NCBI GenBank assembly: GCA_021734245.1 | Contig: JAIPJH010000020.1 | Coordinates: 1-34,825, forward strand | Direction: 5' to 3' | DNA: 34,825 nucleotides | DNA from: Candidatus Cloacimonadota bacterium | Lineage (GTDB): Bacteria; Cloacimonadota; Cloacimonadia; Cloacimonadales; TCS61 | Shown here: positions 1-34,657 of the stretch, piece by piece | Position numbering within the stretch: position 1 is the first letter of the stretch | Layout of the letters: each line of letters starts with the position of its first letter | Notes under the pieces: model-generated | Seen by the model: only the letters and a program-made list of their open reading frames with translations | The model's database searches: none | What the model was told of the DNA's origin: nothing | Program-made: the position numbers and the translations under genes

Positions 1-2
1 CT

Positions 3-488
3 ATTTTTGGGAATGAACGAGATAAGGTCGATAGAGCTATGATCGAAGCTTTGGCAATAATGCAATATGCTCATCCTGAAGAAACTGAAATGATGCTGGC
101 AAAACTGGTGAATTCCTACACAGCAGCGGCAAATGAAAAATCCCGTAGATTCGTGTTGGAATTGAATCAGCAGTCCAAAACCGCTTTGCACCAGAAGTTT
201 AAAATTCTGCGGTCAAACGTTTTTCAGATCGACAAAAAAGGCAGAGAAGTTGAAATAAAAGATATCACGGAATTTGTGGATGGATTTTTAACAGGTTGGA
301 TTTATGCTGATTTTACCAGTGCCATTTTCGGTCGTTATCCGGCTTTCAGGAACGTGGCAAAAGAATGGATAGTCGAGCCGTTCACAGAACAATATGAAAA
401 AAAACCTTCCCGATTTTTTAAAAAATTGTTTGGCGAACTTTTTATAACGCTGCAGAATTTTGAGCCGGAAATTCCGGAATTTGAATAG
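3..488 (+). CDS. Hypothetical protein, 5' end cut by the window edge
   Basis: The reading frame is open from base 3, and codons upstream of the first in-frame ATG (base 39) are still coding-like, so the true start is probably outside the window. About 162 residues are visible, ending in TAG. The protein is soluble-looking, mainly helical, rich in Lys, Phe and Glu, with no membrane segment and an acidic C-terminus (EPEIPEFE). I recognise no family. The stop lies 11 bases before the next gene, and a GAGG motif in that gap serves the next gene, so the two are almost certainly co-transcribed. Its function may be linked to the DHH-like membrane protein that follows, but nothing in the sequence says how. 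Confidence 0.75.
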   Translation: MFGNERDKVDRAMIEALAIMQYAHPEETEMMLAKLVNSYTAAANEKSRRFVLELNQQSKTALHQKFKILRSNVFQIDKKGREVEIKDITEFVDGFLTGWIYADFTSAIFGRYPAFRNVAKEWIVEPFTEQYEKKPSRFFKKLFGELFITLQNFEPEIPEFE

Positions 489-499
489 ATGAGGTAAAG

Positions 500-2752
500 A
501 TGAAATTTGAATTTATCGAAAGCGGTGGAGTGGTTTCTCCTCAGAAAAATAAACTGTATCTGGATGTAGGAAACGATCTCTGTCTGGGAATTATCGATCA
601 TCATCACAATTTTGAAAAAACCTGTGCTGCCAGCCTGGCGCTGCAGCACAAAGATTACATTACCGCTTGGATTACCGACGTGCAAAACACCACTATCGTT
701 TTGCATGTCTGGCCCGATTTTGATTGCGTAGCTTCTGCCTATATTGCCGAAAAAATAATGCGAAAAGAAGATTCTGCGATTTCAAGCAAATTGCAGCTTC
801 TGGCAGATTATGCACTCAAAGTGGATCAGGCTTTGGAAATGGAAGCGATCAACTTAAACGATCCTTCACTTTACACGATCTTTGAAGTTGCCAAGGAAAT
901 GATCTTGAATGATCATACCAAAAATTTTGAAGCCAAAAACCTGGCAATTGTGCAAACCGGATATGAAATTTTTGATCATCTGATGAGTAAACTTTCTGGT
1001 TTCGACAAAAAAATTCCAGCCAATCTTTTTGCTGATACAAACCAGTTCGACGAGCAAAAAAACACGCTGAAAGAAGAGATAAACAAATATCTGTCAGATC
1101 GGGAAAACAAAGAAAAATTTCGGGAGATCGAAATTGAATTACCACTGGTAAAAACCAGGGAATTGACTAAAGTTGCCGGAGTTATCTATAAAGACCCTTC
1201 CTGCAGTTTGTTCAAGCTTCTCTTGCGCAAAGGTATCGATTCACAAGAGATGAATTTGCCGAAATACGTGTTTTCTCTGATAATTTTTTCAGCTTCGGAA
1301 TTCCACAGAAATACCAATTATATTCTCAGCGTCGATCCTGATCTTCCTGCCGAAGAACAAGTCGATCTGCTGGGTTTGGGAGATGCTCTGAACAGGAATG
1401 AAGAACAGAAATTTCGGGAAGCAAAGCAAAATCCTCTCACGCAGAAAGGTCCGCGTTTTACCGAATATCCGCTTTCCGATCCCTGGTACGACGGTCGCGC
1501 ACATCAATGGACGATCGTGGCCAGCCCCAGAAACGGAACCAAATTGAATCTTTCTGAAATCGAACAGATCATGCACGATTTTCCTTTTGCATTCAGTTAT
1601 TATGCAAATTCCGCTTCCAAATGCGATTTGATCTTTAAGATAAATTTGACAGAGCAGCCACAAATCCGTAAAAAATTTGCAGAATGGCAGGAAGTAATTC
1701 CTGAAAAAACTATCCTTTCTCAATCATTTCATAATTTCCTGGCTTGTTCCGATAAGAAAATGCTGTCGATCTATCAAAATCAAAATTGCCGTGTTTTCAT
1801 TCATAACGATAAGATCGCACTACTTTTTGTGGAATTGAGCTTTCCAGCTGCAAAATACAGTCTTTCCGATCTTTTTATCGAAAATAACAAATTCAACGAC
1901 AACCTGGAATTGCAATCTGTTCTGGATAAAAACACATGCTCGTTTCTATCTGAGATCAAAGCGGAATTGATCTACAAAAACTGGTTGTTTTCGCTGAAAT
2001 CTGCCAACGATATGAACACAGATTCGGACAGGAAACTTTTTCATCAAATCGTAAAGAATTTCGCAGCTGGTTCTTCCACGCCATACAAAACAAATTTCTC
2101 GCAACTAAATGTAGATGAAACGGTTTCCATTTCCCGATATTCATTTTGTCACATTCAACCTACCGGTATCACTTTTGCTGTTCGAGATAACGATCCTGAC
2201 CTGGAATTTTCGATTAGACGTCAATACAAAGAGCTTTGGTCGAACATTCTGCAATATGTTGTGTTCAATGGTCTGATGCTTTCTACTTCCTTAAATTTTA
2301 TTAAAGAATCGGTAACGGAAATAAATTATCACAATCAGAAACCGGGAAAAACCGTTAAGAAATTGAATCGACTGAAAGATTTCCTGATCAAACTGAAAAC
2401 CAGATCGGTGCTTTTCAATCTTACTTCCAATTCGCTGGTGAACGAGATCTGGGATAAATTTTTCCAGAAACTCAAGATCAAAGATATCAGTGAAAACGTG
2501 GATAATTCCATCACCGAATTGAATGATTATCTGCAAACCAAACGTCAATCGATCGTAGATCTGACGGTTTTCATCCTGTCGCTGGTTATCATTCCTTTCT
2601 CACTTCTGGGCGATTATTTCGGCGGCATGCTGATGGATACTTTTGGCAGTTGGGCAAAATTTACCTACATTGTTCTCATCGCCTATGGAGGTGCAATTGT
2701 GATTTCTTACGTACTGTACCGCATCATTCACAGCGTGAAGAAGATTAAATAG
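500..2752 (+). CDS. DHH-phosphoesterase-like membrane protein with motifs in permuted order
   Basis: The 750-residue product starts with DHH-superfamily-like motifs. LDVGN (D22) resembles motif II, GIIDHHH (D33-H36) resembles motif III, and HVWPDFDCVASA (H69, D73, D75, S79) resembles motif I. Canonical RecJ/GdpP-type DHH domains carry motif I first, so the order here is II-III-I. The middle 400 residues are unrecognised. The C-terminus has a long amphipathic helix (about 625-685) and two membrane helices (about 688-708 and 720-742) ending in a basic tail. This loosely recalls CorA-type stalk plus two-helix topology, but the GMN signature is absent (LLGDYFGG at that place). The start follows GAGGTAAAG. 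A phosphoesterase or pyrophosphatase acting at the inner membrane is an inference. The gene is certain; the family call is moderate. Confidence 0.65.
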   Translation: MKFEFIESGGVVSPQKNKLYLDVGNDLCLGIIDHHHNFEKTCAASLALQHKDYITAWITDVQNTTIVLHVWPDFDCVASAYIAEKIMRKEDSAISSKLQLLADYALKVDQALEMEAINLNDPSLYTIFEVAKEMILNDHTKNFEAKNLAIVQTGYEIFDHLMSKLSGFDKKIPANLFADTNQFDEQKNTLKEEINKYLSDRENKEKFREIEIELPLVKTRELTKVAGVIYKDPSCSLFKLLLRKGIDSQEMNLPKYVFSLIIFSASEFHRNTNYILSVDPDLPAEEQVDLLGLGDALNRNEEQKFREAKQNPLTQKGPRFTEYPLSDPWYDGRAHQWTIVASPRNGTKLNLSEIEQIMHDFPFAFSYYANSASKCDLIFKINLTEQPQIRKKFAEWQEVIPEKTILSQSFHNFLACSDKKMLSIYQNQNCRVFIHNDKIALLFVELSFPAAKYSLSDLFIENNKFNDNLELQSVLDKNTCSFLSEIKAELIYKNWLFSLKSANDMNTDSDRKLFHQIVKNFAAGSSTPYKTNFSQLNVDETVSISRYSFCHIQPTGITFAVRDNDPDLEFSIRRQYKELWSNILQYVVFNGLMLSTSLNFIKESVTEINYHNQKPGKTVKKLNRLKDFLIKLKTRSVLFNLTSNSLVNEIWDKFFQKLKIKDISENVDNSITELNDYLQTKRQSIVDLTVFILSLVIIPFSLLGDYFGGMLMDTFGSWAKFTYIVLIAYGGAIVISYVLYRIIHSVKKIK

Positions 2753-34284: not shown

Positions 34285-34359
34285 GCCGACGTGGCTCAAC
34301 GGTAGAGCACTCGACTTGTAATCGAGCGGTTGTGGGTTCGATTCCTACCGTCGGCACCA
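34285..34359 (+). tRNA. tRNA-Thr (UGU anticodon)
   Basis: Acceptor GCCGACG pairs with CGTCGGC, discriminator A and an encoded CCA. Anticodon stem CTCGA/TCGAG closes the loop CTTGTAA, giving anticodon TGT. T-arm GTGGGTTCGATTCCTAC is standard. First of four tRNAs ahead of tuf. Confidence 0.97.
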
Positions 34360-34377
34360 TTTAAAGTCATAAAGTGT

Positions 34378-34463
34378 GGAGGGGTTCCCGAGCGGCCAAA
34401 GGGAACAGACTGTAAATCTGTCGTCAGACGACTTCGGAGGTTCGAATCCTCCCCCCTCCACCA
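34378..34463 (+). tRNA. tRNA-Tyr (GUA anticodon)
   Basis: Acceptor GGAGGGG pairs with CCCCTCC, discriminator A and encoded CCA. Anticodon stem ACAGA/TCTGT closes CTGTAAA, giving GTA. The long variable arm (CGTCAGACGACTTC) marks a class II tRNA, as expected for bacterial tRNA-Tyr. Confidence 0.97.
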
Positions 34464-34489
34464 TTTAATATATTCAAAACGATTTGGAT

Positions 34490-34565
34490 GCGGGAGTAGC
34501 TCAATTGGTAGAGCATTAGCCTTCCAAGCTAAGGGTCGCGGGTTCGAACCCCGTCTCCCGCTCCA
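34490..34565 (+). tRNA. tRNA-Gly (UCC anticodon)
   Basis: Acceptor GCGGGAG pairs with CTCCCGC, discriminator T and encoded CCA. Anticodon stem TTAGC/GCTAA closes CTTCCAA, giving TCC. D-arm and T-arm are standard. Confidence 0.97.
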
Positions 34566-34581
34566 TTTTTTTTGGTTATAT

Positions 34582-34657
34582 GCTCATGTAGCTCAGTCGG
34601 TAGAGCACATCCTTGGTAAGGATGAGGTCACCGGTTCAAGTCCGGTCATGAGCCCCA
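34582..34657 (+). tRNA. tRNA-Thr (GGU anticodon)
   Basis: Acceptor GCTCATG pairs with CATGAGC, discriminator C and encoded CCA. Anticodon stem CATCC/GGATG closes TTGGTAA, giving GGT. It ends 35 bases before the tuf start. Confidence 0.96.

Follow-up and report, generated by a model that had tools for sequence, protein, structure and literature searches.

The window analysed here is a stretch of 34,825 nucleotides that constitutes the entire contig C20 of a Candidatus Cloacimonadota genome (G000, 98.5% complete). At its 5′ end, two adjoining genes lie on the forward strand: the terminal part of a predicted NACHT/STAND NTPase gene (1..488, read in the frame from base 3), which is cut because the window begins at the contig end, and an open reading frame of 750 amino acids (500..2752) encoding a predicted membrane protein with DHH-type motifs near its N-terminus and a CorA-like C-terminal tail (hereafter, the DHH-CorA protein). 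The latter frame starts with ATG and has a good ribosome-binding-like stretch (AGGTAAAG). Directly 5′ of it, an in-frame TGA (482-484) excludes any additional N-terminal DxD motif upstream, so that a canonical first motif has not been cut off. From position 2796 onward, the genes have an ordinary housekeeping look when their translations are inspected by eye (DEAD helicase, HtrA-like, ClpB, MutS, Rho, and LepA), and a cluster of four tRNA genes (Thr-TGT, Tyr, Gly, and Thr-GGT) is located near the window end at 34285-34657.

A homologue of the DHH-CorA protein is encoded in a second Cloacimonadota genome (G009), with 61% identity over residues 126-748 and 63% over residues 1-35, the intervening residues 36-125 being interrupted by a contig gap. 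The fractions of differing bases between the two genes are 0.33, 0.18, and 0.54 at codon positions 1, 2, and 3, respectively, indicating purifying selection. The best conserved part of the protein comprises residues 206-350 (1115..1549, forward strand), within which residues 316-344 are identical without a break (KGPRFTEYPLSDPWYDGRAHQWTIVASPR). The distribution of the protein is rare and patchy: it is present in 2 of 125 genomes of the phylum (G000 and G009), and the DNA pattern for WYDGR[AG]H is found in the same two genomes only, out of 123. Neither two scans of genome contigs nor a profile search across the phylum revealed a homologue beyond G009, and none was detected in phages and plasmids by tblastn or in viral contigs by protein search, where the DNA patterns for DPWYDGR and PWYDGR[AG]H matched unrelated proteins only. 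The best weak extra match of the phylum profile search, in genome G049, was rejected as a CoaBC-like flavoprotein (by eye) that contains FPDFDC by chance.

Two clusters of DHH-type motifs are found in the N-terminal part of the protein. Motifs II and III (LDVGN-x5-IIDHH, residues 21-35, LDVGNDLCLGIIDHH; 560..604, forward strand; 13 of 15 residues identical in G009) precede motif I (HVWPDFDCVAS, residues 69-79), giving the order II-III-I in place of the I-II-III order of the DHH superfamily and bearing out the reversed order reported in an earlier, sequence-only reading of this DNA. Among 100,000 shuffled versions of the protein, the motif II/III pattern appeared 7 times, the motif I pattern twice, and both together not once; neither cluster is a product of chance. 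For motif I, which lies in an NrnA-like segment including HVWPDFDCVASA (644..781, forward strand; residues 49-94), several comparisons converge. The Pfam DHH model aligns with residues 65-143 when the whole protein is searched (E=0.021) and reaches E=5.9e-4 with residues 1-200, where its 20.6 bits fall short of the curated cut-off (28.1); positions 8-52 of a profile built from 22 NrnA-length DHH proteins of relatives align with residues 49-93 at 10.1 bits, a score that none of 3000 shuffles equalled. Additionally, the best matches in a PDB sequence search, the DHH "exopolyphosphatase-related" structures 3w5w and 4py9 (E=1.1), fall on the same segment. On the basis of these matches, the motif I half is in all likelihood homologous to DHH proteins, and the presence of DHH-like motifs, also claimed earlier, is thereby backed for motif I. 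With NrnA and other DHH-DHHA1 phosphoesterases (3w5w and 4py9), the protein thus shares the motif I segment and the helix before it; it differs from them in having motifs II and III before motif I, in lacking a recognisable DHHA1 domain or GGGH-type motif, and in carrying a membrane tail.

The evidence for motifs II and III is of another kind. Residues 1-61 score 1.1 bits against the NrnA profile, a value equalled by 70 of 3000 shuffles (about 2%), and since neither this profile nor the Pfam DHH model recognises the two motifs, they represent a local pattern match. Together with the non-canonical order and the lack of a GGGH-type motif, this would fit a decayed or non-catalytic remnant in a protein whose sole role is that of a membrane pore or anchor triggered by STAND. 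Such an explanation appears rather improbable, given that no canonical metal-ligand type (D, D, DHH, H, D, and D) is missing and that, among the first 35 residues, those of motifs II/III are kept best between the two genomes. The sole homologue, in G009, with its gap over residues 36-125, preserves YLDVGN-LC-GIIDHH, including D22, D33, H34, and H35, while the flanking and preceding residues diverge, which argues for a function of these motifs.

Two other DHH proteins of G000 match the Pfam DHH model over nearly their whole length and therefore have the normal motif order. The sequence-only reading had considered a circularly permuted active site, a proposal that found no support in its strict form: rotations at every fourth N-terminal residue, compared with the NrnA profile, gave no preferred cut, and rotating the N-terminus into the canonical order left the profile scores within noise. 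Two AlphaFold models based on three sequences had pLDDT values of 35 and 33 and were unusable for fold assignment because alignment depth was lacking. In a secondary structure prediction of very low confidence, some 130 residues after motif I are helical, and the rearrangement may hence be a transposition that brought the strands carrying motifs II and III to the start of the protein, and not a simple circular permutation. No evident description of a permuted DHH domain was found in the literature, as judged by title and abstract.

At its C-terminus (2318..2731, forward strand; about residues 607-744), the protein is predicted to form a long stalk helix followed by two transmembrane helices, a feature of the CorA/MIT family that is shared with CorA Mg2+ transporters. 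Hydropathy places the two hydrophobic helices at about residues 683-709 and 721-743, and the PADLOC CorA models PDLC01174 and PDLC01043 match the C-terminus with E=1.5e-6, a real but weak similarity in line with the membrane pair "loosely like CorA" noted earlier. The GMN signature at the end of the first transmembrane helix is replaced in both genomes, by GGM in DYFGGMLMD (G000) and by SGL in DYFSGLLMD (G009), and ordinary CorA-length proteins of relatives match the same PADLOC models equally well. For these two reasons, the tail is, by its sequence, CorA-like but not CorA. Besides the substitution of GMN by FGGM or FSGL, the protein differs from CorA Mg2+ transporters in its unrelated soluble part, and no Pfam CorA match was obtained anywhere in it.

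The upstream gene encodes the C-terminal 161 amino acids of a protein whose homologue in G009 (locus L004) is at least 1451 amino acids long, with 63% identity to residues 1290-1450 of the latter. The G009 protein contains Walker A (AESGAGKTT) and Walker B (FIIIIDGINES) motifs and matches Pfam NPHP3_N at 32.7 bits (cut-off 24.8) and NACHT at 23.9 bits (below the cut-off of 26.7). By homology to this protein, which supplies the Walker motif evidence as the NTPase part of the G000 gene is missing from the assembly, the upstream partner is the end of a NACHT/STAND NTPase. The earlier description of a two-gene unit with an unrecognised partner therefore holds in its first part, since the STAND gene adjoins the DHH-CorA gene in both genomes at a distance of 10-11 bases (10 in G009), but not in its second, the partner being recognisable. 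Downstream, the neighbours differ (a DEAD helicase in G000 and a pyruvate-kinase-like ORF in G009), which points to a mobile two-gene cassette. In the N-terminal domain of the STAND protein, an RxxxxH HEPN-like motif (RNDYVH or RNEWFH) is aligned in five STAND proteins as RN[DE][YW][VF]H; the Pfam HEPN model gives no match at this domain. No known defence genes were found beside the DHH-CorA locus of either genome, and the STAND-DHH-CorA pair has no evident description among the papers listed in literature searches. Were the tail taken at face value, the protein might be a cation transporter of the CorA type, with a housekeeping role and a regulatory nucleotide domain, that came to lie beside a STAND gene by accident. 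This is highly improbable in view of its presence in only 2 of the 125 genomes, the loss of GMN, the separate ordinary CorA-like genes in many relatives, and the STAND neighbour that both genomes share despite their different flanks.

Avs and NACHT proteins provide an established basis for inferring a sensor-effector pair. Considering the STAND partner together with the phosphoesterase neighbours of related STAND genes (see below), we read the DHH-CorA protein as a candidate membrane phosphoesterase effector of a STAND module. It may tentatively be viewed as the effector, or effector and limiter, of a NACHT/STAND conflict module, most likely an anti-phage one, a reading that is quite possible and derives from sequence and gene order only. 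In this scheme, the STAND protein would sense an intruder via its C-terminal repeats, bind ATP, oligomerise, and activate the DHH-CorA protein, whose DHH-type metal site would hydrolyse a nucleotide or another phosphoester, while the CorA-like tail would form a multimeric pore or anchor the enzyme in the membrane. Bacterial NACHT/STAND defence proteins (Avs and bNACHT) resemble this arrangement in their central STAND NTPase, long C-terminal region, and adjoining effector-type gene, and a relative in genome G021 matches Avs2. Unlike in those systems, the effector candidate here is a separate membrane protein, and the STAND family has no close PADLOC model, with Pfam matching the NTPase core only.

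The nearest known design is the NrN-CorA fusion found in type III-B CRISPR systems that signal through SAM-AMP. There, the messenger believed to open CorA is degraded by the DHH enzyme, and Aliarcobacter butzleri and its relatives encode nrn and corA as a fusion (Chi et al. 2023, PMC10600005). The N-terminal site of the DHH-CorA protein might likewise degrade a nucleotide messenger that gates the tail, the protein being a stray or repurposed relative of NrN-CorA. The two have the same general plan, namely one polypeptide that combines a DHH-type phosphodiesterase with a CorA-like membrane tail of two helices, and a predicted immune role; the PADLOC CorA models match the tail. Set against this are the differing motif order (II-III-I), the large unrelated middle (residues 95-600 of the soluble part have no match to CorA models), a STAND partner in place of Cas10, and the equally good matches of ordinary CorA proteins to the same models. 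Furthermore, the Cmr2-type Cas10 model TIGR02577, the one Cas10 model searched, has no match in the contigs of the 98.5% complete G000, and membership in a type III CRISPR CorA-NrN system is accordingly not supported. As a whole, this alternative seems unlikely; it is possible that the DHH-CorA protein works similarly to NrN-CorA.

The candidate role as a STAND-associated effector gains context from related STAND loci in the phylum. Genomes G115 and G108 encode full-length STAND homologues with 68-69% identity, and G114 encodes a fragment. In G115 and G108, a membrane-anchored EEP phosphatase/nuclease gene (PF03372, 4.6e-8) lies directly upstream of the STAND gene and no DHH-CorA gene follows it; seen from the STAND gene, the partnership is therefore not obligatory. 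At these loci (L040:3164-8609 and L041:7901-13343), the EEP-family gene is 1 base upstream of the STAND gene, and an LPP20-domain protein comes next. In G021 and G006, more distant STAND genes (27-31% identity) are flanked by a gene for a PAP2 phosphatase on one side and one for a zinc-dependent phospholipase C-like protein on the other (PF00882, 6.7e-9, with Pfam applied to the G021 genes alone); a gene for a membrane AAA_16-TPR protein comes after the latter. These last two are kept in G003 as well, and the STAND protein of G021 matches PADLOC Avs2 at 5.5e-5. This four-gene unit, observed at L043:2625-11906, L044:421-9708, L045, and L046, with the later genes in two copies in G003, resembles a conflict or lipid-signalling module not described before. 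The recurrence of EEP, PAP2, and zinc phospholipase C beside related STAND genes suggests that the common output of these loci may be hydrolysis of a phosphoester, either nucleotide or lipid, at the membrane.

In its most complete form, the proposal would be that a DHH phosphoesterase with transposed catalytic strands (II-III-I), fused to a CorA-like pore, serves a NACHT/STAND immune module as its switchable membrane effector, and that this module belongs to a broader set of Cloacimonadota STAND systems recruiting DHH, EEP, PAP2, and zinc phospholipase C proteins; taken as a whole, this combination is doubtful. If right, it would extend the outputs of bacterial NLR-like (NACHT/STAND) proteins by a fusion of metal phosphoesterase and channel, show that DHH and CorA, a combination known until now from SAM-AMP CRISPR signalling, also pair where Cmr2-type Cas10 is lacking, and provide a well-studied active site in rearranged form. 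The related STAND loci offer a natural comparison of interchangeable membrane phosphoesterases.

A simple replacement of the DHH-CorA gene by the EEP gene was also considered. G009 has both genes, but its EEP gene (62% identical) stops 91 bases short of a contig edge and no STAND gene begins in these last bases, so that this EEP gene is at most a candidate neighbour of the STAND gene. Near the G108 locus, a relative of the G021-type AAA_16-TPR protein is recognisable by eye. Contigs of G000, G009, G111, and G114 terminate inside or beside the STAND operon (window:1, both ends of L004, L058:1-91, the end of L059, and L042:3458-3562). In G114, neither the EEP gene nor the first half of the STAND gene is present between the upstream neighbour and the remaining STAND sequence, an absence that could reflect a real deletion or an assembly join; this gap and the contig ends suggest strain-level variability at the STAND operon.
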